Position numbers and translations under genes: made by a program. The notes below the pieces were generated by a model, which was given only the letters and a program-made list of their open reading frames with translations, was not told the DNA's origin and did no database searches. Positions 25,672 to 48,663 of a stretch of 64,000 nt of DNA are shown piece after piece. Numbering within the stretch: the stretch's first letter is position 1; every line of letters starts with the position of its first letter. Origin of the DNA: Methyloversatilis universalis EHg5 (GTDB taxonomy: Bacteria > Pseudomonadota > Gammaproteobacteria > Burkholderiales > Rhodocyclaceae); the NCBI RefSeq assembly GCF_000378945.1, contig NZ_KB900539.1, positions 140,168 to 204,167 of the forward strand, in the 5' to 3' direction.

Positions 25672-26535
25672 ATGACCCGCTCCGTGGGCGAAGACCTCAG
25701 CCGTGCCGTACTGGCGCGGCTGGACGGCTGCAGCGATGCACGCCTGCGCACCGTAATGGAGGCGCTGGTAAGTCATCTGCACAGCTTCGTCCGTGAGGTC
25801 GATCTGACGCCTGAAGAGTGGTCTGCCGCCATCGACTTCCTGACCGCCACCGGTCAGGCCTGCACCGCCCGCCGCCAGGAGTTCACGCTGCTGTCCGACA
25901 CGCTGGGCGTGTCGATGCTGGTGATCGCGCTGGCACAGGCCCGCACCGGTGACCGCTCGAACGGCGCCACCGATGCGACCGAAGCATCGGTGCAGGGGCC
26001 GTACTGCCTGCAGGGCAGGTCTGACTGTCCGCTTGGTACCGACATCGCCGAGGGCGTGCGTGGCGAGCCCACCTTCTACGCCGGCCGCGTCACCGATACC
26101 GAAGGCATGCCGATCGCCGGTGCGCTGCTCGATGTGTGTTCCGGCGACGGCACTGGCGACACGCCGATGCATGCACACGGCCGCTTCCGGACCGACGATC
26201 AGGGGCGCTACTGGTTCTGGTCGGTCCGTCCGGCGCCTCAGGCGCTGCCGGCGGACGGACCGGTCGGCCGCCTGCTCGAACGCGCGGGCGCTCACCTGAA
26301 CCGCCCGGCTCACCTCCACATGAAAGTGTCGGCAGACGGCTTCGTGCCCCTCGCCACCCAGCTGTTCGTGGCCGGCAGCGACTACCTCGATTCGGACGCG
26401 GCGTTCGGCGTGCGCGACAGCCTGATCGTCGATTTCGACCGTCACGAACAGGGCGAAGCGCCGGACGGGCGGCGCATGCGCAAACCCTACTGGTCGGCCC
26501 ACTACGACTTCCGGCTGGCGCCGGTGCATGACTGA
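25672..26535 (+). CDS. Intradiol ring-cleavage dioxygenase (catechol/hydroxyquinol 1,2-type)
   Basis: 287 aa from the ATG at 25672, preceded by GGAGGAG. The N-terminal helical domain is that of catechol/hydroxyquinol 1,2-dioxygenases (VREVDLTPEEWSAAIDFLTATG). The Fe(III) ligands are visible as Tyr in VQGPYC, Tyr in GRYWFWSVRP and two His in RPAHLHMKV. It opens an ortho-diphenol between the hydroxyls to give a muconate. The segment after the first ligand differs from the standard EGPFY form, so the substrate may be unusual (hydroxyquinol-like or alkyl-substituted). It is the first gene of the operon. Confidence 0.85.
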   Translation: MTRSVGEDLSRAVLARLDGCSDARLRTVMEALVSHLHSFVREVDLTPEEWSAAIDFLTATGQACTARRQEFTLLSDTLGVSMLVIALAQARTGDRSNGATDATEASVQGPYCLQGRSDCPLGTDIAEGVRGEPTFYAGRVTDTEGMPIAGALLDVCSGDGTGDTPMHAHGRFRTDDQGRYWFWSVRPAPQALPADGPVGRLLERAGAHLNRPAHLHMKVSADGFVPLATQLFVAGSDYLDSDAAFGVRDSLIVDFDRHEQGEAPDGRRMRKPYWSAHYDFRLAPVHD

Positions 26536-26578
26536 TTTCGACGCCGCGCCGGCGTGCGCGGCAGCAAAGGACCTCACG

Positions 26579-27379
26579 ATGAAGATAGGCAAGGAAACGA
26601 TTCCGCGGACCGCGATCTCGACCTCGGACGAACATTCGATCACGGTGCGCGGCGCCGACCTGTGCGGCGAGCTGATCGGCCGCATCGGCTTCACGGAATA
26701 TTTCCATCTGCTGGTGACCGGCCGGCGTGCGACACCCGCGGCCACCGCCGTGCTCGACGCCACGCTGGTCGCCATCGCCGAACACGGTCTGGTGCCCAGC
26801 GTGCAGGCCAGCCGGATGACGCTGGCCGCCGCCCCCGACGCGCTGCAGGGTGCGGTGGCGGCCGGCATTCTGGGCTGCGGCTCGGTCATTCTCGGGGCGT
26901 CGGAAACCGCCGGCCGCCTGTTCCACGAAATCGAGCAGCGCGCCGCCGGTGGCGACATCGACACCGCGGCACGCGAGGTGGTGCAGGCCTGGCGCGCCGA
27001 AAGGAAGCCCATTCCCGGCTACGGCCACCCGCAGCACAAGGCGCGTGACCCGCGTGTTGACGCGCTGTTCGCGGTGGCCCGCGAACACGGCATCGACCTG
27101 CGCTACGTCGCAATCGCCGAAGCGGTCGAGCGGGCGATTCCGGCCGTGATCGGCAAGGACCTCAAGCTCAATGTGTCGGCCGCGATTCCGGCGCTGCTGC
27201 TGGGCGTCGGCTTCCCGCTGGAGGCACTCAAGGGGGTGCCTATCCTGGCGCGCACCGCCGGCCTGATCGCGCATCTGACCGAGGAGCTCCAGCGCTCGAT
27301 CGGTTTCGCGCTGTCCTATCAGGCCGCCCGCGAAGCGCAGTACGACGGCGAGCCGGCACGCGACGGAGCAGCGGAATGA
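26579..27379 (+). CDS. Citryl-CoA lyase-like protein (citrate synthase fold)
   Basis: 266 aa from the ATG at 26579 (AAAGGA upstream); an earlier ATG at 26528 overlaps the dioxygenase stop. It resembles the citrate-synthase-type lyase domain of ATP-citrate lyase and free citryl-CoA lyase: MKIGKETIPRTAIST, FTEYFHLLVTGR and PGYGHPQHK with the catalytic His. The family breaks a 2-hydroxy-2-carboxyacyl-CoA into acetyl-CoA and a 2-oxoacid. It is far shorter than citrate synthase (about 430 aa). Fusion-like coupling to a CoA-transferase gene (ATGA overlap) suggests that enzyme makes its CoA-thioester substrate. Confidence 0.8.
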   Translation: MKIGKETIPRTAISTSDEHSITVRGADLCGELIGRIGFTEYFHLLVTGRRATPAATAVLDATLVAIAEHGLVPSVQASRMTLAAAPDALQGAVAAGILGCGSVILGASETAGRLFHEIEQRAAGGDIDTAAREVVQAWRAERKPIPGYGHPQHKARDPRVDALFAVAREHGIDLRYVAIAEAVERAIPAVIGKDLKLNVSAAIPALLLGVGFPLEALKGVPILARTAGLIAHLTEELQRSIGFALSYQAAREAQYDGEPARDGAAE

Positions 27380-28548
27380 GCGGCGTGCTCGACGGCGTGC
27401 GCGTGATCGAACAGGGCACCTTCATCACCGGCCCGGCGGCCGGCATGATCCTGGCCGACCTGGGCGCGGACGTGATCAAGGTGGAACAGCCGGAAACCGG
27501 CGACCCCTTCCGCGCGTTCAAGGGCGGCCTCTACAGCCCGCACTTCCAGACCTACAACCGCAACAAGCGCAGCATCGCGCTGAACACCAAGAACGCCGAC
27601 GACCTCGCGGTGTTCGACGACCTCATCCGCAGTGCGGACGTGTACATCCAGAACTTCCGTCCCGGCGCGGCGGAACGTCTCGGTGCGGGCGAGGCGCGCC
27701 TGCGCGCGCTGAATCCGCGCCTCATCTACTGCGCCATCAGTGGTTTCGGGCAGACCGGCCCGGCTGCACAACGGCCGAGTTACGACACGGTGGCCCAGGC
27801 TGCGAGCGGATATCTGAAGCTGCTGGTGAACCCGGCGGATCCGCGCGTCGTGGGGCCGGCCGTCGCTGACGCGATGACCGGCTACTACGCCGCCTTCGGC
27901 ATTCTCGGCGCGCTGTACGAGCGCGAACGCACCGGCGCCGGCCGCAAGGTCGAAGTGTCGATGCTGGAGGCGATGTGCCACTTCAACCTCGACGCCTTCA
28001 CCCACTACCTGTCGGAAGGCGAAGTCATGGGGCCGTTCAGCCGGCCCAGCGTGTCGCAGTCCTACGTGCTGCGCTGTGGCGACGACCGGTGGCTGGCGCT
28101 GCACATGTCCTCGCCGGAAAAGTTCTGGCAGGGCCTGGCCGAAGCCATGGGCCGGCCGGACATCTTCAGCGATCCGCGCTTCTGTTCGCGCGAGGCGCGC
28201 ATCCATCACTACGACGACCTGATCGCGCTGCTGCGCAGCGTGTTCGCCACCGACACGCGTGAGGCCTGGTGCGCACGGCTGGCGGCGCAGGACGTGCCGC
28301 ACGCGCCGATGTACGACACCGATGAGGTGCTCGCCGACCCGCAGGTGCGTCACCTCGAACTCGAAGTCGGTGCCCGGCACCCGCAGATGGGGCCGTTCCG
28401 CACCATCCGTTTCCCGGTGTCCTTTGACGGACGGCGCGCCTTCGACATCCAGCCGCCGCCGGTGCTCGACGAGCACGGCGAGGCCATCCGCAGCAGCCTG
28501 CAGCACCCGGACGCCGGCACATCCACCCAGGCCGGCGACGACAGATGA
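27376..28548 (+). CDS. CaiB/BaiF class III CoA-transferase
   Basis: 390 aa. The family blocks are DGVRVIEQGTFITGP, ADLGADVIKVE, NRNKRSIALNTK, ISGFGQTGP and VADAMTGYYAAFG, the last with the Asp that forms the acyl-enzyme. It moves CoA between carboxylates; succinyl-CoA:citramalate transferases belong to this class. The start overlaps the lyase stop (ATGA), so I infer that it activates the acid the lyase then splits. It is cytoplasmic. Confidence 0.9.
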   Translation: MSGVLDGVRVIEQGTFITGPAAGMILADLGADVIKVEQPETGDPFRAFKGGLYSPHFQTYNRNKRSIALNTKNADDLAVFDDLIRSADVYIQNFRPGAAERLGAGEARLRALNPRLIYCAISGFGQTGPAAQRPSYDTVAQAASGYLKLLVNPADPRVVGPAVADAMTGYYAAFGILGALYERERTGAGRKVEVSMLEAMCHFNLDAFTHYLSEGEVMGPFSRPSVSQSYVLRCGDDRWLALHMSSPEKFWQGLAEAMGRPDIFSDPRFCSREARIHHYDDLIALLRSVFATDTREAWCARLAAQDVPHAPMYDTDEVLADPQVRHLELEVGARHPQMGPFRTIRFPVSFDGRRAFDIQPPPVLDEHGEAIRSSLQHPDAGTSTQAGDDR

Positions 28549-28629
28549 AGGGACGACTCACGACGCAGCACTGACAGGCCAGCCGCGCTCTTGCCGCGGT
28601 GGCGCCACACATCAAAAGAAGGAGGAGGC

Positions 28630-30243
28630 ATGAACAACAACACAATACGAAATGTGCCGCGCAGGCCGCGCCGCACGCTGCTGGCCACGCTGTGCGGGCT
28701 GGCATGGCTGCAGCCGGCCGCGGCATTCGACATCGACACCGGCAATCCGGACGTGAAGATGCGCTGGGACAACACGGTGAAGTACTCGGGCGCCTGGCGC
28801 CTGGAGGACCGCTCGCGGCTGCTGACCAGCGACATCAACCAGGACGATGGCAACCGCAATTTCGGTCGCGGCATGATTTCGAACCGGGTCGACCTGCTGT
28901 CCGAGTTCGACATGAGCTACAAGGGCAACATGGGCCTGCGCGTCAGCGGCGCCGGCTGGTATGACAGCATCTACCAGCGCGACAACGACAACAATTCGCC
29001 GGCCACCGCCAACCAGCTGTCACGGCCGGCCGGCGAGTTCGTCGACGCCACCCGCGACCTGCACGGCGGACGTGCCGAATGGCTGGATGCCTTCGTCTAT
29101 GCCACCGGCGAGCGCGCCAACATGCGCCTGGGCCGCCACTCCATCCTGTACGGCGAAACCCTGTTCTTCGGCGCCAACGGCATTGCCGCAGCGCAGTCGC
29201 CGACCGACATCGTGAAACTGCTGTCGGTGCCGAACTCGCAGTTCAAGGAAATCGTGCTGCCGGTGAATCAGGTGTCCGGCCAGCTGCAGCTGACCGACAC
29301 CGTGTCGATCGGTGCCTACTACCAGTTCGAGTTCCGCAAGAACCGCATTCCCGGCGTGGGCAGCTACTTTTCGGGTGCTGATGTGCTGGGCCCGGGTACC
29401 GAACGCTTCCTGTTCGCGCCGGGCATCGGCGTGCCGCGTATCGAAGACGGTGACGCCAGCGACTCCGGTCAGGGCGGCGTGCAGCTGCGCTGGCGTCCGG
29501 AAGGCAAGGACATCGAGTTCGGCTTCTACGCGGTGCGCTACCACGACAAGAACTTCCAGGTGTATCTGCGCCCGGTCGCTGGCGACCTGCAGATGGTCTA
29601 TCCGGAAGGCGTGCGCGCCTACGGCGTGAGCTTCAGTACCGAAATCGCCGACTTCAATCTGGCCGGTGAATTTTCTGTCCGCCGCAATACGCCGCTGGTC
29701 AGCGGCCCGGTGGTCGACCTGAGCCCGACCGGCGTGGCCGACAACGACCGCAACGCGCTGTATGCGATCGGCAATTCGGCGCACGCCAACCTGTCCGGCA
29801 TCTTCTTTCTGAACCGCTCGAAGTTCTGGGACAACGCCTCGCTGGTCGCTGAACTGGCCTGGAACCGCCGCACCAGCATCACGAAGAACGCCGCCGAGCT
29901 GGATCCGAACACCTCGCGCGATGCCTGGGGTCTGCGTTTCGTGTTCGAGCCGCAGTGGTTCCAGGTGGCGGCCGGTCTCGACCTGTCGGTGCCGATCGGC
30001 GTTGGCTACAACCCCAAGGGCAATTCGTCGGTGGTGCAGCTGTTCAACGGCGGCGTGGAGCACGGCGGCGACGTGTCGATCGGCGTCAAGGGCGTCTATC
30101 AGCAGGTGTGGCGCGGCGGCATCAACTACACCCACTACGTTGGTCAGGCCGGCAATGCGCTGGGCACCGACGCCAACCTCACCTTCAAGCAGAACTACGC
30201 GGACCGCGACTTCATCTCGGTTTCGCTGCAGCGCACCTTCTAA
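28630..30243 (+). CDS. DUF1302 outer-membrane-like protein
   Basis: 537 aa from the ATG at 28630 (AAGGAGGAGG upstream). After a signal peptide ending WLQPAAAF, the protein begins DIDTGNPDVKMRWDNTVKYS and is made of beta-strand repeats with a C-terminal Phe (VSLQRTF), typical of an outer-membrane barrel of family PF06980. The family is regularly found with DUF1329, YCF48-like and RND genes in operons for hydrophobic substrates. A role in moving or binding the substrate at the outer membrane is inferred. Confidence 0.85.
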   Translation: MNNNTIRNVPRRPRRTLLATLCGLAWLQPAAAFDIDTGNPDVKMRWDNTVKYSGAWRLEDRSRLLTSDINQDDGNRNFGRGMISNRVDLLSEFDMSYKGNMGLRVSGAGWYDSIYQRDNDNNSPATANQLSRPAGEFVDATRDLHGGRAEWLDAFVYATGERANMRLGRHSILYGETLFFGANGIAAAQSPTDIVKLLSVPNSQFKEIVLPVNQVSGQLQLTDTVSIGAYYQFEFRKNRIPGVGSYFSGADVLGPGTERFLFAPGIGVPRIEDGDASDSGQGGVQLRWRPEGKDIEFGFYAVRYHDKNFQVYLRPVAGDLQMVYPEGVRAYGVSFSTEIADFNLAGEFSVRRNTPLVSGPVVDLSPTGVADNDRNALYAIGNSAHANLSGIFFLNRSKFWDNASLVAELAWNRRTSITKNAAELDPNTSRDAWGLRFVFEPQWFQVAAGLDLSVPIGVGYNPKGNSSVVQLFNGGVEHGGDVSIGVKGVYQQVWRGGINYTHYVGQAGNALGTDANLTFKQNYADRDFISVSLQRTF

Positions 30244-30261
30244 GAACACCGGAGACTGCAC

Positions 30262-31608
30262 ATGATTTCTACCAAAACACTTGCGGCCGCCCTGCTGGCC
30301 GCGTCGATGGCCGGCACCGGCTGGGCGGCGGTGACCGCCGACGAAGCCGCCAGGCTGAAGGCCGAACTGACGCCGCTGGGCGCCGAAAAGGCCGGCAACA
30401 AGGACGGCAGCATTCCCGCCTGGAGCGGCGGTTACACCAAGGTGCCGGCGGGCTACAAGAGCGGTCAGCCGCGACCCGATCCGTTCGCCGACGAGAAGCC
30501 GCTGTTTACGGTGACCGCGGCCAATATGGCGCAGTACGCCGACAGGCTGGACGAAGGTCAGCAGTACCTGCTGAAGAAGTACCCGGACTACCGGATCAAC
30601 GTCTATCCGACCCACCGCAGCGCCGCCGCACCGCAGTGGGTGTATGACGAAACGTTCAAGAACGCCACCCGCGCGAAGCTGGACGGCGATTCGGTCACCG
30701 ATGCCTATGGCGGCATTCCGTTCCCGCTGCCCAAGACCGGCGCCGAGCTGCTGTGGAATCACTCGCTGCGCGTGCGCTCGCAGGGCTACCGGCAGGCTTT
30801 CCGCACCTACACCGTGGATACCAACGGCACGGCTTCGCTGGCGAGCGGCGCGCTGAACGAAGTGACGATTCCCTACTACACCAAGGGCCTGTCGCCGGAA
30901 AATCTGAAGAGCAACGGCGGTGCCTACTACCAGAACCTGCAGTCGGTGGAGTCGCCGTCTATCCGTGCCGGCGAGATGCTCATGTACTACGACCAGCTCG
31001 ATAACACCCGGCCGGCCTGGCAGTACCTGGTGGGCCAGCGCCGGGTGCGTCGTGCGCCGACCATCTGCTGCGATACGCCGAACTTCGTGGCGTCCGGCGT
31101 CGACTTCTTCGACCAGGTGTTCGTGTGGTTCGGTCCGGCCACCAACTACGACTGGAAGATCGCCGGCAAGAAGGAGCTGATCATCCCGTACAACAACAAC
31201 CGTCTGGTGGCGGCCAAGCCGGAGGACGCGATGGCCAAGCACTTCGTGAATCCGGATCTGGTGCGCTGGGAGGTTCACCGCGTGTGGGTGCTCGAAGGAA
31301 CGGTGCGCGCCGGCAAGCGCGACGTGCGCCCGAAGCGCCGGCTCTACCTCGACGAGGACACCTACATCGCCGCCATCGGCAACACCTGGGACGCGCAGGG
31401 CGCGCTGTGGCACACCAGCTACGGCTTTCCCTGGGTCCAGTACGAGATTCCGGCCGTGGGTCAGGAAACCTACACCACGCTGGACCTGATCAAGGGCACC
31501 TACTCCTACACCACGATGAGCGATCAGCAGAACCAGATCCAGGTGATCGATCCGCTGCCGCCGAGCTACTACACACCGGAATCGCTGTCGCGTCGCGGGG
31601 TGCGGTGA
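30262..31608 (+). CDS. DUF1329 periplasmic/outer-membrane protein
   Basis: 448 aa with a signal peptide (MISTKTLAAALLAASMAGTGWA). The body matches PF07044, a LolA-like fold: LTPLGAEKAGNKDGSIPAW, DPFADEKPLFTVTA and WQYLVGQRRVRRAPT. It is translated 19 bp after the DUF1302 gene. The pair is thought to help carry hydrophobic molecules through the periplasm together with the RND protein; the exact function is not known. Confidence 0.85.
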   Translation: MISTKTLAAALLAASMAGTGWAAVTADEAARLKAELTPLGAEKAGNKDGSIPAWSGGYTKVPAGYKSGQPRPDPFADEKPLFTVTAANMAQYADRLDEGQQYLLKKYPDYRINVYPTHRSAAAPQWVYDETFKNATRAKLDGDSVTDAYGGIPFPLPKTGAELLWNHSLRVRSQGYRQAFRTYTVDTNGTASLASGALNEVTIPYYTKGLSPENLKSNGGAYYQNLQSVESPSIRAGEMLMYYDQLDNTRPAWQYLVGQRRVRRAPTICCDTPNFVASGVDFFDQVFVWFGPATNYDWKIAGKKELIIPYNNNRLVAAKPEDAMAKHFVNPDLVRWEVHRVWVLEGTVRAGKRDVRPKRRLYLDEDTYIAAIGNTWDAQGALWHTSYGFPWVQYEIPAVGQETYTTLDLIKGTYSYTTMSDQQNQIQVIDPLPPSYYTPESLSRRGVR

Positions 31609-31685
31609 TCCGGTCGGTTCAGGCCCTGCCGGACGGCGGGGCCGCAACCGGACCGATCAACTGAGTGTGTATTCGGGAGTGCAGC

Positions 31686-33362
31686 ATGAGCAGCAATGAA
31701 AATTCCGTACTGATCGTCGGCGCCGGGCCGACCGGACTGATCCTGGCGCATGAGCTGATGCGTCGCAACGTGCCGGTGCGGCTGATCGAGAAGCGCAAGG
31801 GGCCGTCGCACACCACGCGGGCGATGACGGTGCATGCGCGGTCGATGGAAATGTTCGAACACATGGGCATCGCCCACCGGCTGGAAGAGGTCTGCCTGCA
31901 GTGCCCGGGCAACATCTACCACTTTCCGCATCTGGCGGAGGACGCGCAGCCGCGTACCGACTACCGGGTGCTGCCGACCCGGTTCGCCTTCTACTACAAG
32001 ATCAACCAGAACGATTTCGAGCAGGTTCTGCGCGAGCACCTGTTCTCGCAGTACAGCCTGAAGCCGGAGTACCGCACCGAACTGGTCGGCCTCACGCAGG
32101 ACGGCCCGCAGGTCGAGGCCCGCATCGCGCTGCCGGACGGATCGACCGAAACGCGTCGCCATCCGTGGGTGGTCGGCTGCGACGGCGTGCGCAGCTTCGT
32201 GCGCGGCGCCGCGGGCATCGATTTTCCGGGCGAGGAAGTGGCCGCCATGGCGATGATGGATGTCGAACTGAGCAATGTGACCTTCGACGATCGCTGGATG
32301 AACTACTTCTTCGACAAGTCGCTGTTCATGAACTGCACCAAGCTGCCCGGACGCTGCTGGCGCATCTACATGAGCGAACCGAGCGGCGCCTTCGTGCATG
32401 CCGACAATCCGCGCGAGGCCTTCCAGACGGTGGCCGACAGGCTGGGCATCGGCATGCGGATCGGCGAACCGGAGTGGGCGACCGCCTGGGCGATCCGCAA
32501 CAACATTGCCGACCGCTACCGTAACGGCCGCATGCTCATCTGCGGCGACGCTTCGCACGTGCATTCGCCGTCGGGTGGTCAGGGCATGAACGGCTGCATG
32601 CAGGACGCCTTCAACCTCGGCTGGAAGCTTGCGGCGGTGTTCAAGGGGCAGGCCTCCGAGAGCGTGCTGGACAGTTATGAACGCGAGCGCAAGCCGATAG
32701 GCGAACAGATCACCGAAGGCGCGATGTCCACCCACGAAATCGTGATGGGATTCGGCATCGAACCGGAGGAGCGCTATCACTACACGCAGGAAGAGGGCTG
32801 GGAGGCGCGCACGATCGCGCTGGTGTCCGGCCTGTCGCACAACTACCGCGACGTGTCGGTCGTGCCGCAGCTGCTGCACGCGGTTGCGGGCCCCCGTGCG
32901 GGCGAGCGTGCACCCGATGCGCTGCTGGTGCGCGAGCCGCAGAAGCGCCTGTACGACGTGTTCAGGCATCCACGCTTCACGCTGCTGGTGGTGCCCGGTG
33001 CGGACGGTGAATCCCATCTGGCCATCGGACGCAGGCTGCGTGACGAGCTGGACCGCCGCTACCCGGGCCAGGTACTGGCCTGCCTGATTCCCGGGGCGGC
33101 CGAGCAGGTGGCCGAACATCCGGACCCGGACCGGGCGACCAAGGCGACGGCCCTGTCCGCGGGGCGGGGCGACGAGCTCGGCTTCGACTTCGATCACCGG
33201 GTTGCTGATGAAACCGGCGAAATCCGCGCGCGCTACGGCATTGGCGCCGAAGGCCGTCTGGTGCTGGTGCGCCCCGATCTCTATGTCGGCATGAGCTGCG
33301 TGCCGGAAGAAGGGGCCGCCATCCTCGGCTATCTCGAACAGTGGTTCCGTCCGGCGCAATGA
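31686..33362 (+). CDS. FAD-dependent aromatic hydroxylase (PheA/TfdB/MhpA type)
   Basis: 558 aa from the ATG at 31686 (GGGAG upstream). FAD motifs are VGAGPTGLILAHEL near the N-terminus, the DG motif VVGCDGVRSFVRG and GDASHVHSPSGGQGMN, with a thioredoxin-like C-terminal domain as in phenol 2-monooxygenase and 3-(3-hydroxyphenyl)propionate hydroxylase. It adds a hydroxyl ortho to a phenolic OH using NAD(P)H and O2. In this operon it probably makes the diphenol for ring cleavage. Confidence 0.9.
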   Translation: MSSNENSVLIVGAGPTGLILAHELMRRNVPVRLIEKRKGPSHTTRAMTVHARSMEMFEHMGIAHRLEEVCLQCPGNIYHFPHLAEDAQPRTDYRVLPTRFAFYYKINQNDFEQVLREHLFSQYSLKPEYRTELVGLTQDGPQVEARIALPDGSTETRRHPWVVGCDGVRSFVRGAAGIDFPGEEVAAMAMMDVELSNVTFDDRWMNYFFDKSLFMNCTKLPGRCWRIYMSEPSGAFVHADNPREAFQTVADRLGIGMRIGEPEWATAWAIRNNIADRYRNGRMLICGDASHVHSPSGGQGMNGCMQDAFNLGWKLAAVFKGQASESVLDSYERERKPIGEQITEGAMSTHEIVMGFGIEPEERYHYTQEEGWEARTIALVSGLSHNYRDVSVVPQLLHAVAGPRAGERAPDALLVREPQKRLYDVFRHPRFTLLVVPGADGESHLAIGRRLRDELDRRYPGQVLACLIPGAAEQVAEHPDPDRATKATALSAGRGDELGFDFDHRVADETGEIRARYGIGAEGRLVLVRPDLYVGMSCVPEEGAAILGYLEQWFRPAQ

Positions 33363-33405: not shown

Positions 33406-33801
33406 ATGAAGGTTCTGGACGTGCTCGTGAGGAAGGACCTTCTCATCGACCAGCTCGATGCGGCGACCGGCTTCTACACCCGCCTGCTCGATGCGCCGGT
33501 CGGCCTGGACCTGAACCTGCTGGACGGGCAGCTGCGCATCGTGGGCATCGGCAGGATGCTGCTGGTGGCCTGCCATCCGCGCATCCGCCCGTCGATTCCT
33601 GCCGCCGGCGCCGCCTATCTGGTCAGTGGCATCGACGCCTTCCACTCGACCCTGAGCGCGCTGGGCTGCCGCGTGGTCGTACCGCTGAGCGAGGTCGTCA
33701 CCGGCAGGGCCATGGTGATCGAGCACCCGGACGGACTGGTGGTCGAGTACGTCGAACATCGCCCGCGCGATGCGGCATCCGGCCCTGGAGAACATCAATG
33801 A
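33406..33801 (+). CDS. Small VOC-family (glyoxalase/dioxygenase-like) protein
   Basis: 131 aa with one vicinal-oxygen-chelate module: an N-terminal strand-helix unit (DQLDAATGFYTRLLD) and a C-terminal strand ending EHPDGLVVEYVEH. The terminal Glu ligand is visible; the first His ligand is not obvious, so it may be a binding or isomerising protein and not a dioxygenase. GGGAGG precedes the ATG. It overlaps the next gene by ATGA. Confidence 0.7.
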   Translation: MKVLDVLVRKDLLIDQLDAATGFYTRLLDAPVGLDLNLLDGQLRIVGIGRMLLVACHPRIRPSIPAAGAAYLVSGIDAFHSTLSALGCRVVVPLSEVVTGRAMVIEHPDGLVVEYVEHRPRDAASGPGEHQ

Positions 33802-34886
33802 AAAATCTTTCGTATTCGCTTGCGCTGAAGCGCGGCGCGCTGCTGCTGGCCTCGCTGGGTGCGATGGCCGGTGTGGCTGCAGCCATCCAGGGGACATCGC
33901 CGGAGGCGCTCGATCCGCTGGACCCGCTGGCACGCAAGGCCGCGATGGTGCCCAGTGCGCCGGCGTCGGTCCTGATTGCCGCGACACGGGTCGGGGAGCG
34001 GGTTTTCGTCGCAGGCGAGAACGGCATCCTGCTGTTCAGCGACGACGGCGGCGCGCGCTGGCAGCAGGCGTCGGTGCCGGTCAGCGTGACGCTGACCGCG
34101 GTGCACTTCGCGAATGCGCAGAAGGGATGGGCGGTCGGTCACAGCGGCGTGGTGCTGGCGACTGCCGACGCCGGCCGGACCTGGGTTCGCCAGCTCGATG
34201 GACGCCAGATCGGCGATCTGCCGCAGGAGGCATCGGCGGCCGACGCCGAATCTTCACCGGCGCCGAATCCGGGCGACCCGCTGCTGGATGTGCTGTTCCT
34301 CGACGAGAACGAAGGTTTCGCGCTTGGCGCATTCGGCCTGCTGCTGCACACCGCCGACGGCGGCGCGCACTGGACGCGTGCGTCCTCGCGTCTGCCCAAC
34401 CCCGACGGCAATCATCTGTACGGCATCCGGCTGATCGGTGACCGTCTGTACGTGGTCGGTGAGCGCGGAGCCGTGTTCGCGTCGAACGACCGTGGTGCCC
34501 GGTTCGAGGCGCTGAAGACACCGTATGACGGCAGCTACTTCGGTGTCGTGGGCAACCCGCAGGGCCAACTCGTGGTGTTCGGTCTGCAGGGGCGTGCATT
34601 CGCATCGGCCGACCATGGCAGGACCTGGGCCGACGTCAGCGGCGGTGCGGACAGTGCCTGGACCGGCGCGACCACGCTGGCGGATGGCCGCATGGTGATG
34701 GTCGGTCAGGCGGGTGAGGTGCGCATGCAGGCCGGCGTGTCCGACCGCGTCGACCTGCTGCAGGGCAAGCAGCCCCCGCTGTCGGCTGTCGTGGCGCTCG
34801 ACCCGCAGCGGCTCGTCACTGTCGGGCCGCGCGGCGTGCGCGTGATTCAACTGGCTTCGGCCGCAAACAGGAGTGAACAACCGTGA
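33798..34886 (+). CDS. YCF48-like (BNR-repeat) periplasmic protein
   Basis: 362 aa from the ATG at 33798, overlapping the VOC stop. A signal peptide (LALKRGALLLASLGAMAGVAAA) precedes beta-propeller repeats of the form LFSDDGGARWQQ, LATADAGRTWVRQ, LLHTADGGAHWTR and ASADHGRTWADV. These are the photosystem II assembly factor YCF48/BNR repeats. In heterotrophs such genes sit directly before an RND gene, as here, and probably form a periplasmic partner of it. Confidence 0.85.
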   Translation: MKNLSYSLALKRGALLLASLGAMAGVAAAIQGTSPEALDPLDPLARKAAMVPSAPASVLIAATRVGERVFVAGENGILLFSDDGGARWQQASVPVSVTLTAVHFANAQKGWAVGHSGVVLATADAGRTWVRQLDGRQIGDLPQEASAADAESSPAPNPGDPLLDVLFLDENEGFALGAFGLLLHTADGGAHWTRASSRLPNPDGNHLYGIRLIGDRLYVVGERGAVFASNDRGARFEALKTPYDGSYFGVVGNPQGQLVVFGLQGRAFASADHGRTWADVSGGADSAWTGATTLADGRMVMVGQAGEVRMQAGVSDRVDLLQGKQPPLSAVVALDPQRLVTVGPRGVRVIQLASAANRSEQP

Positions 34887-37315: not shown

Positions 37316-37347
37316 ACCGGCGATCTCACATAAAGGAGGAGCACACC

Positions 37348-37947
37348 ATGAGTCTTCAGAACTGGACCCCGAGCGACATCGATCTGGACCGCGCGCGCGC
37401 GATCGCCACCGAGCGCCGCGCCGCCAACAAGGTGAAGATGCTGCATCACCACGCCTTCCGCTGCCGCAACGCGGACGAGACGCGTGCCTTCTATGAGGGC
37501 GTGCTGGGTTTCCCGCTGGTGGCCTGCTGTATCGAACCCATCGATCCGCTGACCAACGAGCCCAAGCCCTACATGCACCTCTACTTCGAACTGGCCGACG
37601 GCAGTGCGCTGGCCTTCTTCGACTATCCGGCGCACTTCACGGCCGCCGATTTCCCGGAGGTCGACCAGTTCGGCCATCACATCGCGATGGAAGTGAGCGG
37701 CGGCCACGAAACCATCGATGGCTACAAGAAGAAGCTCCAGGCGGCCGGCATCGACGTGCTGGAGATCGACCATGGCTACTGCCGCTCGATCTACTTCTAC
37801 GATCCGAACGGCATGCGGGTCGAGTTCGCCACCAACGTGACGGTGACCGAGCGCTTCTTCGCCGACAAGTACCAGTCGGTCGATGCCGACATGGCGAAGT
37901 GGAAGGAAATCCGTGCGCAGCACTTCGGCGAGGCGGTGAAGGCCTGA
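37348..37947 (+). CDS. VOC-family metalloprotein, possible extradiol-type dioxygenase
   Basis: 199 aa with a strong AAGGAGGAG site. Metal ligands of the VOC 2-His-1-Glu type can be proposed: His in MLHHHAFRCRN, His in QFGHHIAMEV and Glu in GMRVEFATN. The N-terminal ~30 residues are an added helix. Single-domain members act as glyoxalases, epimerases or small ring-cleaving dioxygenases. With an intradiol enzyme also in the operon, this protein may act on a second ring or on a ring-cleavage product. Confidence 0.75.
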   Translation: MSLQNWTPSDIDLDRARAIATERRAANKVKMLHHHAFRCRNADETRAFYEGVLGFPLVACCIEPIDPLTNEPKPYMHLYFELADGSALAFFDYPAHFTAADFPEVDQFGHHIAMEVSGGHETIDGYKKKLQAAGIDVLEIDHGYCRSIYFYDPNGMRVEFATNVTVTERFFADKYQSVDADMAKWKEIRAQHFGEAVKA

Positions 37948-37968
37948 GCGGCCGGAAGGGTGGATGAC

Positions 37969-38850
37969 ATGACGCACGATAGTCCGCGCCCTGCCTTCCT
38001 GCGCCACGATTGCGTGTCGGAAGACGGCTGCCGCATCGCCTGGTGGTCGGCCGGAAATCCGGACGGGTGTCCGGTTGTGCTGCTGCATGGCTTCGCGCTG
38101 GACCACACGGTGTGGGCCCCGCTCTACGCGCAGCGCGCACTGATGGAGCGCTGCCATCTGGTGATGCCGGATCTGCGCGGTCACGGCGGGTCGGACCGCA
38201 TGCCGACACCGGCCCACTACATCTCGGGCGATGCCTGGGCCGCCGACCTCGATGCGGTGATCCGCGCCGCCGGTCTGGCGCGACCCACCGTGGTGGCCTG
38301 GTCTTTTGGCGGGCGAAGCGTGCTCGATTACGTGCGCCGTTACGGCGCCGACCGGCTGCAGGGCATCCAGTTCGTGGCGGCGGCCAGTCTGGCGCATTTC
38401 GCTTCGGCCGGCCCGGACCACGTCATTCTCGATGCGCTGTGCGCGGAGGACGGCGCCGCGGTGGCGGATGCGACCGGACGCTTCATCGGCGACGTGCTGG
38501 GCGTGCCGCGCGACAGCGCCGACTTCGCCGCGCTGACCGCGGTGGCGGCACGCTGTCCGGTCGAACACCGCCGCTGGATGCGCCAGCGCGGGCTGGATTA
38601 CGACGCGCTGATCGCCGGTCTCGATCTGCCGCTGATGTGGGTGAATGGCGAGCACGACGGCATCGTGCTGCCGTCGCGCGCCGAGGTGTTCCGCGAACGG
38701 CTGCCGGATGCCCGCATCTCGATTCACGCCGGCGCCCGCCATGCGCCCTTCCGCGACGACCCGGCGCGCTTCGCGCGCGAGCTGGTCGACTTCATCACCG
38801 ATCCGCCGCCCTGCCGCCGCACAGCCATTGCGCTGGCCGGATCGCACTGA
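37969..38850 (+). CDS. Alpha/beta hydrolase, MhpC-like
   Basis: 293 aa from the ATG at 37969 (GGAAGGG 8 nt upstream); a GTG in frame at 37960 is less likely. The fold is shown by PVVLLHGFALDHTVW (oxyanion loop), the nucleophile elbow AWSFGG, NGEHDGIVLP (acid) and the final His in AGARHAPF. Such enzymes hydrolyse C-C bonds of ring-cleavage products, lactones or esters. The place in the operon fits a lower-pathway hydrolase. Confidence 0.85.
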   Translation: MTHDSPRPAFLRHDCVSEDGCRIAWWSAGNPDGCPVVLLHGFALDHTVWAPLYAQRALMERCHLVMPDLRGHGGSDRMPTPAHYISGDAWAADLDAVIRAAGLARPTVVAWSFGGRSVLDYVRRYGADRLQGIQFVAAASLAHFASAGPDHVILDALCAEDGAAVADATGRFIGDVLGVPRDSADFAALTAVAARCPVEHRRWMRQRGLDYDALIAGLDLPLMWVNGEHDGIVLPSRAEVFRERLPDARISIHAGARHAPFRDDPARFARELVDFITDPPPCRRTAIALAGSH

Positions 38851-38897
38851 CAACACCGAGGCCGCACACGACGGCCCGATCAAACAGGAGACTCACC

Positions 38898-39950
38898 ATG
38901 TACCCGCTACCCGAAGGCTGTTTCGCTCCGCGCAACCAGTGGTATATCGCCGCCTGGGCCGACGAGGTCAGGCGCGAGCCGATGGAGCGCTGGATACTCA
39001 ACGAACCGGTCGCTTTCTATCGCACCGAAGACGGCCGCGCGGTCGCGCTCGAAGGCCGTTGTCCGCACCGCCACTTCCCGCTCGGCAAGAGCCGGCTGGT
39101 GGGCGACAACATCGAATGCATGTATCACGGCATCACCTTCTCGCCCAAGGGCGACTGCGTGCGCATCCCGTCGCAGGGCATGGTGCCGGCCAGCTGCAAG
39201 GTGAAGGCCTATCCGCTGGTCGAGCGCTGGAAGTGGCTGTGGATCTGGATGGGCGATCCGGCGCTGGCCGACGAATCGCTGATTCCGGATCACCACGAGA
39301 TCGGTCTGACCGACCCGGCCTTCACGGTCGAGTCCGGCACCTATCACGCAGTGCCCGGCCGCTACATGCTGATGCACGACAACCTGTTCGACCTCACCCA
39401 CCTCGGCTTCCTGCATCAGACCAGCATCGGTGCCGGCGACTACAGCGTGGTCGACGAGCAGCGGGACAACGGCGACAACTGGATCAGCAGCCAGCGCGAG
39501 TTCCCGAACATCCAGTGCCCGCCGCTCTATGCGCAGGTGTTCGGTTACGAGGGCAAGGTCGACCGCGCTTTCGGCATGAAACTCTTCCTGCCTTCGCTGC
39601 ATGCCGGCTACGACTTCCTGTTCAAGTCCAGGACCGACAGCGACGACCCGGGTGCCGTGCTTGGCAAGGTGCGCGTCTATCACGCGATCACGCCCGCCAC
39701 GAAGAACACCGCCCACTACTTCTTCGCCTACGGCCGCACTTTCAAGCAGGACGACGACGCTTTCGGCAAGGCCATGCTGGCCAGCTTCAATGCGGTAATC
39801 GAGGAGGACATGCTGGCCACCCGCGAGATCGAGGCCATGCTCACCACGCTGGGCACGACGCCGCCGGAGGTGCTGCTGAAGGCCGATGCCACCTGCGTGC
39901 GCGGACGGCGGCTGTTTGAAAGTCTCATCCGCAAGGAACAGGCGGTCTGA
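38898..39950 (+). CDS. Rieske oxygenase alpha subunit, VanA-like (O-demethylase type)
   Basis: 350 aa, the size of vanillate O-demethylase VanA. The Rieske site is CPH...CMYHG (C-X-H-X16-C-X2-H, residues about 55-78), and the mononuclear iron motif is DLTHLGFLH (D-X2-H-X4-H). It uses O2 and electrons from the next gene's product to demethylate a methoxyaromatic acid or hydroxylate a ring. AGGAG is upstream. The start of the reductase overlaps its stop (TGATG). Confidence 0.9.
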   Translation: MYPLPEGCFAPRNQWYIAAWADEVRREPMERWILNEPVAFYRTEDGRAVALEGRCPHRHFPLGKSRLVGDNIECMYHGITFSPKGDCVRIPSQGMVPASCKVKAYPLVERWKWLWIWMGDPALADESLIPDHHEIGLTDPAFTVESGTYHAVPGRYMLMHDNLFDLTHLGFLHQTSIGAGDYSVVDEQRDNGDNWISSQREFPNIQCPPLYAQVFGYEGKVDRAFGMKLFLPSLHAGYDFLFKSRTDSDDPGAVLGKVRVYHAITPATKNTAHYFFAYGRTFKQDDDAFGKAMLASFNAVIEEDMLATREIEAMLTTLGTTPPEVLLKADATCVRGRRLFESLIRKEQAV

Positions 39951-40915
39951 TGGCTACGGTCCAGACGCTGCAGGTGCGCGTCGCGCGTCGCGAAGCCGAG
40001 GCCGAGGGCATCGCCCGCTTCGAGCTGGTCAGTGCGGACGGCGCACCACTGCCCGCCTTCACCGCGGGTTCCCATATCGATGTGCTGCTGGGCGACGGTT
40101 TGACCCGGCAGTACTCGCTGTGCGGACATCCGGCCGATCGCAGCCGCTACCAGCTGGGCGTGCTGCTTGACCCGGCGTCACGCGGTGGCTCGCGTGCGAT
40201 GCACGCGCTGGCAGAGGGCGCCACGCTTGCGATCAGCGCGCCGCGCAACCACTTCGAACTGGCGGCCGATGCGCGCCACCATCTGCTGCTGGCCGGCGGC
40301 ATCGGCGTCACGCCGCTGCTGTGCATGGCGGAGCAGCTGGCGGCCGACGGCGCCGAGTTCACGCTGCACTACTGCACCCGCTCGCTGGCCCGCACCGCAT
40401 TTCGGGGCCGTCTAGCGAACGCCGAATGGGCCGGGCGCGTGAGCCTCCACCACGATGACGGCGACGCATCCCAGTCCATCGACATGAAGGGCGTGCTGGC
40501 GACCCCCGAGCCGGGCACGCATCTCTACGTATGCGGCCCCAGGGGTTTCATGGACGCCGTGCTGGCGACCGCGCGCGCGCAGGGCTGGCCGGAAGACCGC
40601 ATCCACTACGAGTTCTTCGGGGCGACCGTGGTGACGACGGACGCCGACGCCGACTTCGACGTGAAGCTGGCCCGCTCCGGCCGTGTCATTCCGGTGCGGC
40701 GCGAACAGACGGTGGCGCAGGCGCTTGCCGCGGCTGGCGTCGATCTGCCGGTGTCCTGCGAGCAGGGGGTGTGCGGCACCTGCCTGACACGCGTCATTGA
40801 CGGCACGCCGGACCACCGCGACATGTACATGACGCCGGCCGAACAGGCGAAGAACGACTGTTTCACGCCCTGCTGTTCGCGCTCACTGAGCCCGCTGCTG
40901 GTGATCGACCTTTGA
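39950..40915 (+). CDS. VanB-like ferredoxin reductase for the Rieske oxygenase
   Basis: 321 aa with three parts: a flavin domain (RQYSLCG), an NAD domain (LLAGGIGVTPLLCMAEQL, VCGPRGFMDAV) and a C-terminal plant-type [2Fe-2S] domain (CEQGVCGTC plus a later Cys in DCFTPC). This is the class IA phthalate/vanillate reductase layout. It passes electrons from NADH to the Rieske protein. Its start overlaps the oxygenase stop, and the next gene starts in its own stop. Confidence 0.9.
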   Translation: MATVQTLQVRVARREAEAEGIARFELVSADGAPLPAFTAGSHIDVLLGDGLTRQYSLCGHPADRSRYQLGVLLDPASRGGSRAMHALAEGATLAISAPRNHFELAADARHHLLLAGGIGVTPLLCMAEQLAADGAEFTLHYCTRSLARTAFRGRLANAEWAGRVSLHHDDGDASQSIDMKGVLATPEPGTHLYVCGPRGFMDAVLATARAQGWPEDRIHYEFFGATVVTTDADADFDVKLARSGRVIPVRREQTVAQALAAAGVDLPVSCEQGVCGTCLTRVIDGTPDHRDMYMTPAEQAKNDCFTPCCSRSLSPLLVIDL

Positions 40916-42582
40916 TGCCGGACACCATGATTCCCGACCCGTTGCAGGCACACGCCGCACCCGAACTGACGCCGGCGCAGGTGTTCGCGCTCTATCCGCC
41001 GCACGGCGACACGCTGGCGTCGCTGCTGGCTTCGCGCGCAGCGGCGATACCCGATGCCGAGGCGCTGCTTTTCCAGTCGCGCAGCTGGACCTACCGCCAG
41101 CTGCAGGACGGCGCAGATGCGCTGGCGGCCGTGCTGGCCGCGCAGGGCATCCGTGCCGGCGACCCGGTCGCGCACGTGGCGCCGAACAGCGATCTGGCCG
41201 TGCTGCTCTTCCTCGCGCTCGCCCGCATCGGCGCGCTGTTCGTGCCGCTGAATCCGGCACTCACCGATGACGAACTGCATTACCAGCTGCAGCACTCGCA
41301 GGCGGTGGCGGCTTTTGCGCCGCACAGCCTGTGCGAACGCGTGGCGCAGATCGTCGCGCGCTGCAGCTGTGCTGCCCGGGTGGGCGCGCTCGAAGCTTTG
41401 GGTTACGACGCCGCCGATGCCGCCGCGGCGCTTGCCTGCATCGAGGCGCAGCGGCCTCAGGACGCGCCCGCACTGGCGCAGCCCGGGCCCGACGACCCGG
41501 TGGTGGTGATCTACACCTCGGGCACCACCGGCTTTCCGAAAGGTGTGGTGCACAGCCAGCGCACGGTCGTGTGGTCGGCCGAAGTGTTCGTCGGCCGGCT
41601 GCGGCTGCAGCCGCGCGAGCGCATGCTGACGGTGTTCCCGCTGTTCCACGTCAACGCGCTGTTCTATTCCTTCGCCGGTGCGCTGGCCTGCGGCGGCACC
41701 TTCATCACCGCGGCGAAATTCAGCGCGTCGACCTTCTGGCAGACCGCGGTCGACACCGGTGCCACCCAGCTCAACATTCTGGCGGCGCTGGGCACCATCC
41801 TCGGCCTGCGGCCGCGTTCCGAATTCAATCCGGCGCACCGCATCCGCAAGATCTACGGCGGTCCGATCAGCGTCGACATGTTCCGGCTGTTCCAGCAGGA
41901 ATTCAGCGTGCCGCTGCTGATCGAGGGCTACGGCATGTCGGAGATTCCGTCCACCTGCAGCAACCCCTACGAAGGGCCGCACAAGCCCGGAAGCATCGGC
42001 CGTGCCGGTGTGCATCCGCGCTTCGACGGCGCGTTTGCACAGCTGCGCGTGGTCGATGATGACGGCCGCGACGTCGCGGTGGGCGAGGCCGGTGAATTGC
42101 TGGTGCAGACACCGACCCTGTTCGTTGCCTACCTGAACGATGCGCAGCAGACCGCCGAGGCGTTCCGCGACGGCTGGTTCGCCACCGGTGATCTGGTGCG
42201 CATGGACGCCGACGGCTATTTCTATTTCGTTGCGCGCAAGAAGGACATCATCCGCAAGCGTGGCGAAAACATATCCGGCGCCGAACTGGACGCCGCGCTC
42301 GGCCGTCATCCGGACCTGGCCGAAGCGGCCACCCTCGCGGTGCCGTCCGAACTGGGCGAGGACGACATTCTTGCCGTGCTGGTGGCGCGCGACGGCATGG
42401 CGCCGACGCACGAGGCGGTGATCGACTGGTGCCGCGCACACATGGCGGCGATCAAGGTGCCGCGCTATCTGGTGTTCGCAGACGCGCTGCCCAAGACACC
42501 CACGCAGCGGGTCGCCAAGCATCTGCTGAAGAAGGACGCCGCGCTGATCGCCCGCGCCCGCGACATGGAGGTCGCACCGTGA
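40915..42582 (+). CDS. AMP-forming acyl-CoA synthetase
   Basis: 555 aa from the ATG at 40915 (TGATG overlap with the reductase stop). ANL-superfamily motifs are [16 protein letters not shown] (P-loop), [16 protein letters not shown] and the C-terminal Lys motif [10 protein letters not shown]. It most resembles the crotonobetaine/carnitine-CoA ligase and 4-coumarate-CoA ligase groups. It would activate an aromatic or short carboxylic acid at the start or end of the pathway. Confidence 0.9.
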
Positions 42583-42605
42583 TGATCCGCAGCGACGACA
42601 GGCGT

Positions 42606-42761
42606 CGGAGCGCCGTCGCCCGGCCGCCCGAAGGTGGCGCGCCTCCTCCCTCGGGGAGGGTGTCGCGCAGCGACGGGAGGGCCCGGAGCGCCACCGCCCG
42701 GCCGCCCGAAGGCGGCGCGCCTCCTCCCTCGGGGAGGGTGTCGCGCAGCGACGGGAGGGCC
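42606..42761 (+). repeat. Two tandem 78-bp repeats with internal hairpin
   Basis: Units at 42606-42683 and 42684-42761 differ at only three positions. Each holds the inverted repeat CCTCCCTC/GGGGAGG. They lie between the ligase stop and the leuC-like ATG and end 2 bp before that ATG, so the ribosome site for LeuC (GGGAGGGCCC) is part of the repeat. They look like members of a dispersed intergenic repeat family of GC-rich proteobacteria. Confidence 0.8.
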
Positions 42762-42763
42762 CA

Positions 42764-44167
42764 ATGACCACCCCCCGTACCCTGTTCGACAAGCTGTGGT
42801 CGCGCCATGTGGTGTCCGAGCGCGATGACGCGGCGCTGCTCTACGTCGATCGCCATCTGGTCTATGAGGTGACCAGTCCTCAGGCCTTCGAAGGATTGAG
42901 GCTGGCCGGCCGGCAGCCCTGGCGGCGTGACACCGTGCTGGCGACCGCCGACCACAATGTGCCCACCACCTCGCACCGTGAGGTGATCCGTGATCCGCTG
43001 TCCCGCCAGCAGGTGGACCAGCTCACGCGCAACTGCGATGAGTTCGGCATCACGCTGTTTCCGCTCGGCGACCGGCGGCAGGGCATCATCCATGTGGTCG
43101 GGCCGGAACAGGGCGCCACGCTGCCCGGCATGACGGTGGTGGCCGGCGATTCGCACACCAGCACGCACGGCGCCTTCGCGGCGCTGGCCTTCGGCGTCGG
43201 CACATCCGAGGTCGAGCATGTGCTGGCCACCCAGTGCATGTGGGTGGACCGCATGCGCACGCTTTACATCGAGCTGCGCGGCGCGCTGCCGCACGGCGTG
43301 ACGGCCAAGGACGTCGTGCTCGCGGTGATCGCGCGGCTGGGCGCATCCGGTGGCACCGGCTGCGCCATCGAGTTCGGTGGCGACGCGGTGCGTGCGCTGT
43401 CGATGGAGGCGCGCATGACCCTGTGCAATATGGCGATCGAGGCCGGCGCGCGGGTCGCCCTGGTGGCGGTCGATGAGACCACGCTGGCCTATCTCGAGGG
43501 CCGCCCCCAGGCACCGCGCGGTGCCCGGTGGGACGCTGCCTGCCGTTACTGGCGCACGCTGGTGAGCGACCCCGGGGCGGCGCACGACGCCAGCCTTGCG
43601 ATCGACGTATCGACACTGCGGCCGATGGTGAGCTGGGGCACGTCACCGGCGCAGACCGTGGCGGTCGACGACCGGGTGCCCGATCCGGCCGGCGAATCCG
43701 ATCCGGTGCGCCGCGTGCAGATGCAGCGCGCGCTCGACTACATGGCGCTGCAGCCGGGTACGCCGATCACCGCCATCCGGCCCGACCGCATCTTCATCGG
43801 TTCCTGCACCAACGCGCGCATCGAGGATCTGCGGGCCGCGGCGGCCGTGCTGCGCGGGCGCCGTGTCGCGCCCACCGTACGCCAGGCGCTGGTGGTGCCC
43901 GGTTCTGGTCTGGTCAAGGCACAGGCGGAAGCGGAAGGGCTGGACCGCCTGTTCATCGACGCCGGTTTCGAGTGGCGCGAACCCGGCTGTTCGATGTGCC
44001 TGGGCATGAACGACGACAGCCTGCAGCCGGGCGAGCGTTGCGCATCGACCTCGAACCGCAATTTCGAAGGCCGTCAGGGTGCCGGTGGACGCACCCATCT
44101 GGTCAGTCCGGCAATGGCCGCAGCGGCCGCGCTGGCCGGGCATTTCACCGACATCAGCGAGGGCTGA
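42764..44167 (+). CDS. leuC: LeuC-type isomerase/hydro-lyase large subunit
   Basis: 467 aa, with the full bacterial LeuC pattern: [24 protein letters not shown] and cluster cysteines in [12 protein letters not shown] and [10 protein letters not shown], which bind [4Fe-4S]. LeuC with LeuD turns 2- into 3-isopropylmalate through dimethylcitraconate. No leuA or leuB is present. The place at the end of a catabolic operon suggests a paralogue that hydrates an alkylmaleate, as LeuCD-related maleate hydratases do in gentisate pathways. It may equally be the housekeeping enzyme, because it is close to standard LeuC. Confidence 0.85.
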
Positions 44168-44168
44168 C

Positions 44169-44813
44169 ATGGATGCCTTCACCGTGCTCGACGGTCTGGT
44201 CGTGCCGCTGGACCGGGCCGATGTCGATACCGACGCGCTCATCCCGAAGCAGTTCATGAAGTCGATCGCGCGCACCGGCTTCGGCGACAACCTGTTCGAC
44301 AGCTGGCGCTATCTCGATCCGGGTGAACCGGGCAAACCGCGGTCCGAACGTCGGCTGAATCCGGACTTCGTGCTGAACCAGCCGCGCTACCGGGGCGCGC
44401 AGATACTGCTCGGGCGTGACAACTTCGGCTGTGGTTCAAGCCGCGAACATGCGCTGTGGGCGCTGGTGGATTACGGCATCCGCGTCATCGTCGCGCCGGG
44501 CTTCGCCGACATCTTCTTCAACAACTGCTTCAAGAACGGCGTGCTGCCGGTGCGCCTGCCGGCCGACGAGGTCGACGCGCTGTTCGCGGCAGTGGACGCG
44601 ATCGAGGGATACCGGATGACGGTCGATCTGCACGCGCAGCGCATCGCGCTGCCGGACGGCCGATTGCTCGCGTTCGACATCGACCCCTTCCGTCGCGACT
44701 GCCTGCTCAACGGCCTGGACGACATCGCGCTCACATTGCAGCAGGCCGACGACATCCGCCGCTACGAGGCCGGCCGCCGCGACCTGGAGCCCTGGCTGTT
44801 CGCGGGCGGCTGA
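44169..44813 (+). CDS. leuD: LeuD-type isomerase/hydro-lyase small subunit
   Basis: 214 aa, one base after the leuC-like stop. The swivel-domain signatures [31 protein letters not shown] and [12 protein letters not shown] are standard LeuD. It completes the active site of the LeuC-type subunit. It is the last gene of the operon; two hairpins follow. The same caution about leucine synthesis versus catabolism applies. Confidence 0.9.
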
Positions 44814-48652: not shown

Positions 48653-48663
48653 GGCACGGTGAG

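Follow-up and report, generated by a model that had tools for sequence, protein, structure and literature searches.

A catabolic operon beside a LysR gene in Methyloversatilis universalis and a possible CoA-dependent end to aromatic ring degradation

Introduction

A 64,000-nucleotide stretch of the Methyloversatilis universalis EHg5 genome (the window, to which all positions refer; the genome has 4.09 Mb in 2 contigs) carries 16 plus-strand genes at positions 25672-44813 that code for oxygenases, ring-cleavage dioxygenase homologues and CoA-linked enzymes. Muconate cycloisomerase, maleylacetate reductase, thiolase, PcaIJ-type CoA-transferase and cupin gentisate dioxygenase are not found among the 16; for the first three this agrees with an earlier reading made from the sequence alone (the sequence-only reading). 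The locus raises the question of how an aromatic ring would be opened, and its carbon recovered, with such a set of genes.

The answer favoured here, tentatively and with somewhat less than even confidence, is that the operon is under LysR control and serves the catabolism of a hydrophobic aromatic compound that is probably methoxylated. Ring opening by the VOC-family protein VOC2 would be followed by conversion of (alkyl)maleate to (alkyl)malate, then to (alkyl)malyl-CoA and finally to acetyl-CoA plus a 2-oxoacid. We infer every reaction, the order of the steps, the substituent and the substrate from sequence. If this is correct, bacteria need neither maleylacetate reductase nor thiolase to complete the breakdown of an aromatic ring, the citrate-synthase-fold protein of the operon (CS) is an enzyme with new carbon-carbon chemistry, and the regulator motif could be used to find further members.

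Operon organization and proposed route

Profile searches confirm the families that the sequence-only reading had named for this run of genes. Several adjoining genes overlap or abut, all 16 frames are open with zero frameshifts or stops, and the 16 genes form one operon which, together with the divergent LysR gene, spans positions 24605-44813. Among 12 further genomes of the genus, three (the relatives G001, G005 and G007) have a strong homologue (70-72%) of its first product, an intradiol dioxygenase homologue; one more has a weak homologue (30%) and eight have none. G001 and G005 contain all 16 genes in identical order. G007 keeps the order without the genes for the FAD monooxygenase (FMO) and VOC1 and has, between RND and VOC2, two extra Rieske genes of VanA_C type, which would fit a route with several O-demethylations. 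The grouping is more than chance since its order is preserved in G001 and G005 and nearly so in G007.

Uptake of the substrate would involve a DUF1302 protein (28630-30243) and a DUF1329 protein (30262-31608), both with a presumed uptake or envelope role, the YCF48/BNR-repeat protein (33798-34886) and the MMPL/RND transporter (34883-37315). The DdmC/VanA-like Rieske oxygenase (38898-39950), a predicted O-demethylase, has Rieske and VanA_C domains and DdmC as its best PDB match (E 2.6e-47). With its flavin/2Fe-2S reductase partner (39950-40915; Fer2 and NAD_binding_1) it probably removes O-methyl groups, and FMO, of the FAD-dependent aromatic hydroxylase family (31686-33362; Pfam FAD_binding_3), probably hydroxylates the ring. 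VOC2 (37348-37947), a predicted one-domain dioxygenase, probably opens it in a reaction of hydroquinone or type I extradiol type. The alpha/beta hydrolase beside VOC2 (37960-38850; Pfam Abhydrolase_1), a predicted C-C hydrolase, would split the product to yield maleate or alkylmaleate, to which a LeuCD-type hydratase would add water to form (alkyl)malate. Its large subunit is LeuC-type (42764-44167; leuC equivalog above cut-off) and its small subunit LeuD-type (44169-44813; Aconitase_C). CoA would then be transferred to (alkyl)malate by a CaiB-type CoA-transferase (27376-28548; Pfam CoA_transf_3, 366.6 bits), and CS, a citryl-CoA-lyase-like protein (26528-27379; NF004868, 326.8 bits for a cut-off of 193), would cleave (alkyl)malyl-CoA to acetyl-CoA and a 2-oxoacid. 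The AMP-forming acyl-CoA ligase (40912-42582; AMP-binding) may activate the second fragment of the hydrolysis. The two remaining genes code for the intradiol protein, of the hydroxyquinol-1,2-dioxygenase family (25672-26535; Pfam Dioxygenase_N and Dioxygenase_C), and for VOC1 (33406-33801; Pfam Glyoxalase, 22.1 bits for a cut-off of 20.6).

Thymol, carvacrol or isopropylmaleate are chemically possible substrates; they were set aside, as there is no gene evidence for them and none of the papers listed bore on them by title or abstract start. Conversion of methyl-resorcinol (orcinol) to citraconate was also considered and has no direct evidence.

VOC2 and the intradiol homologue

VOC2 positions H34/H35, H112, H143, Y150 and E160 are invariant in seven of seven sequences. 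They make up the complete type I extradiol motif, with a metal triad of His, His and Glu plus a catalytic His and Tyr. One-domain type I extradiol dioxygenases have been described (PMC4250580). In sequence as in fold, the PDB entry nearest to VOC2 is 9u42, an Acinetobacter protein with the title homogentisate 1,2-dioxygenase, and the 50 listed fold matches of VOC2 also include L-DOPA dioxygenase and 2,6-dichlorohydroquinone dioxygenase. The VOC2 gene is directly followed by the hydrolase gene in all four operons of the genus and at L005 (L-numbers designate fetched loci); at L034 and L016 a different hydrolase-like gene, with its family tested in L034 alone, comes before it. When 399 genomes were drawn evenly from the order, own genome counted, five had a VOC2 match at E 1e-35, and among 369 genomes of the class the own genome was the sole match. 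The stretches around the weaker VOC2 relatives L082-L084 gave no CS or CaiB match; around L085 there is one for CaiB, at 35%.

The best PDB matches of the window intradiol protein are chlorohydroxyquinol and hydroxyquinol dioxygenases. The Fe(III) ligands of this family are two Tyr and two His, and the ligand tyrosines are conserved in five PDB alignments. In the window protein the four positions read gap, Gln, His, His: one Tyr falls within an 8-residue in-frame deletion and the other is replaced by Gln. No further intradiol match was found in the genome of the strain. All four ligands are kept in 36 of 40 non-window rows; the 40 rows represent 36 distinct sequences, with seven rows from the three genus relatives and matches below 180 residues, including that of L005, dropped. 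The term intradiol is therefore used here as a family name, the window protein being probably not an active intradiol dioxygenase. The sequence-only reading had assigned ring cleavage to this gene, an assignment that the loss of both tyrosines leaves unsupported in this strain; it had noted the two VOC proteins, which are there, and missed the likely ring-cleaving role of VOC2. On these residue patterns VOC2, not the intradiol homologue, is probably the better ring-cleavage candidate in the window strain.

An intradiol homologue occurs somewhere in 12 of 15 genomes checked; the genomes of L034, L012 and L018 gave no match. Because L034 has none in its genome, a VOC2-type cluster can exist without an intradiol protein. 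The L034 cluster brings together VOC2, Rieske, hydrolase, CS, CaiB and LeuCD, and codes also for a glutathione-independent formaldehyde dehydrogenase (760.9 bits for an NCBIfam cut-off of 636.95), in line with O-demethylation. The intradiol gene of the L005 cluster is split across two frames, possibly through a sequencing error.

The four rows with lost ligands are second intradiol copies in open frames (L030 1377, L032 1351, L038 3289 and L040 3308), each without at least one ligand; in that of L030 only the second His is gone. Their dN/dS is 0.34-0.64 and that of the first copies at the same four loci 0.35-0.44. These ranges overlap, and relaxed selection on the second copies is not shown.

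The CS and CaiB core

One genome_contigs scan with the CS protein gave 47 loci, whose named organisms belong to the Beta-, Gamma- and Alphaproteobacteria. The closest is from a Methyloversatilis MAG (metagenome-assembled genome) whose CS protein is 92% identical. Homologues at these loci are CaiB in 45, LysR in 34 (two weak and partial), intradiol protein in 26, VOC2 in six and LeuC in four; several contigs stop near CS, so that some gene absences may be missing sequence. CaiB mostly adjoins CS, and LysR, CS and CaiB form a core that recurs across Proteobacteria. Some clusters are minimal, with LysR, CS, CaiB and only a Bug receptor or an MFS transporter. In the window CaiB protein the CoA_transf_3 domain is full length (residues 5-367 of 390) and the Asp in the ADxxTG motif of class III (CaiB) CoA-transferases is present.

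CS is closest by sequence to 6hxp, the standalone citryl-CoA lyase of Hydrogenobacter, which is also the top Foldseek match of its model (pLDDT 82.8), and it shares His167, Arg176 and Arg242 of 6hxp.

Some CS clusters have further genes. L062 (8104-15633, Burkholderia glumae plasmid) is compact, with genes for intradiol protein, CS, FMO, CaiB, LeuC and LeuD, and codes also for a hydroxypyruvate-isomerase-like TIM barrel that scores below NCBIfam cut-offs. A single-domain MetE-like gene (methionine-synthase family, below cut-off) precedes the intradiol gene in several CS clusters (L015, 6943-7962, and its C6 relatives). In Advenella (L018) an iron-alcohol dehydrogenase adjoins CS, which NCBIfam does not call maleylacetate reductase; it had no match in the window strain's own genome, a search that had no positive control and says little. 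L066 (12001-22605, Cupriavidus necator N-1 plasmid pBB2) has citryl-CoA lyase, an AMP-binding protein and a dioxygenase near CaiB, HMG-CoA-lyase, LeuC, LeuD and Bug, a set in which the same logic is perhaps served by a different C-C lyase.

The LeuC-LeuD pair

The genome has elsewhere a second LeuC, 66% identical to the operon LeuC, with a LeuD 64% identical to that of the operon. In a LeuC tree of 31 rows the nine operon rows need two label changes (shuffled mean 8.0, with 0 of 500 shuffles as low), a count to which near-copies contribute. A separate group with no operon row holds 14 housekeeping-like rows, the own second copy among them; this fork is open, with support of 88/96. The family score of the operon LeuC alone fits leuC. 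The presence of the second LeuC and the separate grouping of the operon copy suggest that the operon LeuCD is probably catabolic and not the leucine-biosynthesis copy, a role that is unlikely for it. Beyond the four genus operons, LeuCD, CaiB and CS occur together in L005, L034, L036 (whose LeuC copy has one internal stop), L037 and L062.

Points against the route and alternative explanations

Several observations weigh against the proposed route. An Asp common to 6hxp and ATP-citrate lyase (NVD segment) is Ser in 58 of 58 CS rows (Ser217 in the window protein). All 58 have the motif GHPxHK, in which the Arg after the conserved His is replaced by Pro (GHR to GHP) and the +3 Tyr of 6hxp by His. 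In place of the GSAHGG His of 6hxp, 56 rows have Ile and two have Val; ATP-citrate lyase has Phe at this position, so the His is not universal. The 58 rows hold 55 distinct sequences, and some of them were fetched repeatedly from one locus; L050 was dropped as too short. The replaced Asp has a catalytic role in citrate synthase, and D1026 of human ATP-citrate lyase aligns to the same segment. The D1026A form of the human enzyme accumulates citryl-CoA, and the authors describe that ATP-citrate lyase domain as allosteric rather than catalytic (PMC10115795). With Ser for Asp in the whole clade, the lyase chemistry of CS is putative: the name citryl-CoA lyase is a statement of fold and family, and as assigned automatically it does not fit the active site.

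Other points concern ring opening and hydration. The majority of the 50 listed VOC2 fold matches are glyoxalase and fosfomycin-resistance (Fos) type proteins, and the VOC2 model is moderate (pLDDT 73.7). G001, G005 and G007 hold an intact intradiol protein beside VOC2, and six of nine checked genomes without an intradiol gene at the CS locus have a homologue elsewhere. LeuC is found in only 4 of 47 CS loci and LeuCD is thus no obligate partner. In the genome of L016, a locus with VOC2, Rieske and CS-CaiB, LeuC has a single match at E 1e-120. L092 LeuC groups with the operon rows, yet its surroundings match LeuC and LeuD only, without CS or CaiB, so that this grouping is no proof of the pathway. 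The end route from LeuCD through CaiB to a lyase, as drawn by the sequence-only reading, stands in part: the CaiB-CS pair is widespread and LeuCD joins it in other genera; the last reaction is putative.

A different order of steps is considered unlikely. In it CaiB and CS would act before LeuCD, the CoA ester of a beta-keto product such as maleylacetate being cut hydrolytically to maleate and acetyl-CoA, with LeuCD then making malate for central metabolism. The intradiol homologues at 26 of the 47 loci are of hydroxyquinol type, mostly adjoin CS and are mostly without LeuCD; the homologues elsewhere in six of nine genomes point the same way, and the remodelled CS active site could accommodate other chemistry. 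In L062, from LysR to the TIM barrel, no alpha/beta hydrolase is listed in a gene table that is incomplete, and another enzyme could cut the C-C bond. Against this order, window CS and CaiB are constrained (dN/dS 0.07-0.19 versus G001 and G005) though the intradiol ligands are lost, and both proteins exist in L034, L012 and L018, from genomes without an intradiol match. A stable hydroxy-acid would also suit the minimal Bug-receptor clusters better than a beta-keto acid, which is unstable.

A wider proposal, more doubtful than that for the window operon, takes in both types of CoA ester. A widespread LysR-controlled aromatic lower pathway might end in CoA-dependent C-C cleavage of (alkyl)malyl-CoA or beta-ketoacyl-CoA by a CS whose active site has been rebuilt, with Ser in place of Asp and a second His at +3. 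In some of the clusters with VOC2, ring cleavage might have passed to the one-domain extradiol enzyme as the intradiol protein lost its iron site or reading frame.

The loss of intradiol ligands could also mean that the operon is decaying in this strain, the route being cut and the other genes not yet eroded, which is rather improbable. The fast divergence of VOC1 and YCF48 and a repeat array between the AMP ligase and LeuC genes would agree with decay; the 16 open frames and the low dN/dS elsewhere speak against it. Compared with G001, operon genes have dN/dS of 0.04-0.30 (0.28 for the intradiol gene), except for the fast-evolving VOC1 (0.53), whose product is 54-56% identical to the G005 and G001 copies. 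Versus G001 and G005, values are 0.07-0.09 for VOC2 and 0.04-0.07 for the Rieske oxygenase, which is 97-99% identical to theirs; CS comparisons with G007 were left out (misaligned, frame error). The ratio of dN between window-G007 and G001-G007 is highest for the intradiol gene (1.31), followed by YCF48 (1.22). When G005 is the reference the DUF1302 gene (1.58) exceeds the intradiol gene, and no special acceleration of the latter is claimed.

It is improbable that the intradiol protein itself opens a ring of hydroxyquinol type and so supplies LeuCD, CaiB and the lyase with alkylmaleate, the VOC proteins being accessory. The retention of four ligands in most rows makes this possible in relatives, the closest PDB relatives are hydroxyquinol dioxygenases and L062 holds intradiol protein, CS, FMO, CaiB, LeuC, LeuD and TIM barrel; the window copy, without both tyrosines, is the sole intradiol match in its genome. 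For the window strain, opening of the ring by VOC2 remains the preferred reading.

The LysR regulator and its upstream site

The LysR-type regulator gene (24605-25516, minus strand; Pfam LysR_substrate and HTH_1) is divergent from the operon, and a putative LysR operator at 25542-25577 consists of ATCGATGGCATAGAT plus ATGAAAATTCAT. The palindrome ATCGATGNCATCGAT, with up to two mismatches, is present in 30 of 35 LysR-upstream regions versus 19 of 2797 random 150-mers. The 35 regions are the 150 bp upstream of LysR starts that match M[ED][LM]RHLRY, only loci with such a start being counted, and include near copies (L033/L035, L024/L026 and the genus loci); the exceptions are L011, L016, L024, L026 and L045. 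The extended window site has a single match in its own genome, so the regulon in the window strain is probably just this operon. Clusters with only CS, CaiB and Bug receptor also carry the palindrome, which suggests an inducer close to the substrate of CaiB and CS. That CS and CaiB handle an imported citrate-like tricarboxylate and met the aromatic genes by accident would suit the minimal clusters with a Bug receptor or MFS transporter, and is quite improbable given their repeated joining with different ring-cleavage families (intradiol, VOC2 and, in L064, a class III extradiol homologue) and the LysR upstream site common to the clusters.

Surroundings of the operon

Between the AMP ligase and LeuC genes (42645-42759) a G+C-rich unit of 37 bases, within which CCTCCCTCGGGGAGGG is palindromic-looking, occurs twice without a difference and at a distance of 78 bp; its single further genome match with up to three mismatches is at G000:C1:2898892. 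An OMPP1/FadL/TodX-type outer-membrane transporter gene (23266-24504) adjoins LysR and may belong to substrate uptake. It was not found in the searched G001 stretch, where the next gene is close to LysR. On the other side, 46773-55518 is probably an integrated element beside the operon, with tRNA-Leu(gag) followed by an integrase-like gene (DUF6538; Phage_integrase below cut-off) and a resolvase-family gene (54844-55518). A protein of the D-2-hydroxyacid-dehydrogenase family is encoded at 5669-6871; it resembles NAD formate dehydrogenase, which would fit use of demethylation products.

Comparison with known systems

No aromatic cluster with CaiB and citryl-CoA lyase was described in the titles and abstract starts searched, which covered the licensed PMC literature only. 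Riboflavin catabolism (PMC12746152), considered for its Rieske enzyme and catechol dioxygenase, was set aside, the word CoA being absent from its text.

The lower route combines known parts in a new way and includes one unusual enzyme clade. The family of the first operon gene is shared with hydroxyquinol or beta-ketoadipate-type lower pathways; in contrast to these, the window operon has no maleylacetate reductase, PcaIJ-type CoA-transferase or thiolase, and its dioxygenase lacks the Tyr ligands. Maleate hydratase is LeuCD-like. In P. alcaligenes gentisate is degraded through maleylpyruvate to maleate with HbzF (PMC5658364), and a maleate hydratase is named in the title of a cited reference. 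As proposed for the window operon, a hydrolase splits the ring-cleavage product to maleate in this direct route and hydration follows; the window operon differs in having no cupin gentisate dioxygenase, in adding CaiB and CS and in a ring opening that would be due to VOC2 or intradiol protein. Degradation of itaconate through citramalyl-CoA by a CoA-transferase, a hydratase and a citramalyl-CoA lyase, described as a three-step route (PMC12290011), follows the same logic of loading CoA onto a dicarboxylate before C-C cleavage, there to acetyl-CoA and pyruvate. The window operon departs from it by the use of CS with an altered active site and by the presence of LeuCD and ring-cleavage genes. The citramalyl-CoA lyases of the itaconate route are CitE-like. 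Hydrogenobacter 6hxp, the best match of CS by sequence and fold, has the three shared residues His167, Arg176 and Arg242, and is set apart from the CS clade by the changes of Asp to Ser, of the GSAHGG His to Ile or Val, of GHR to GHP and of the +3 Tyr to His.

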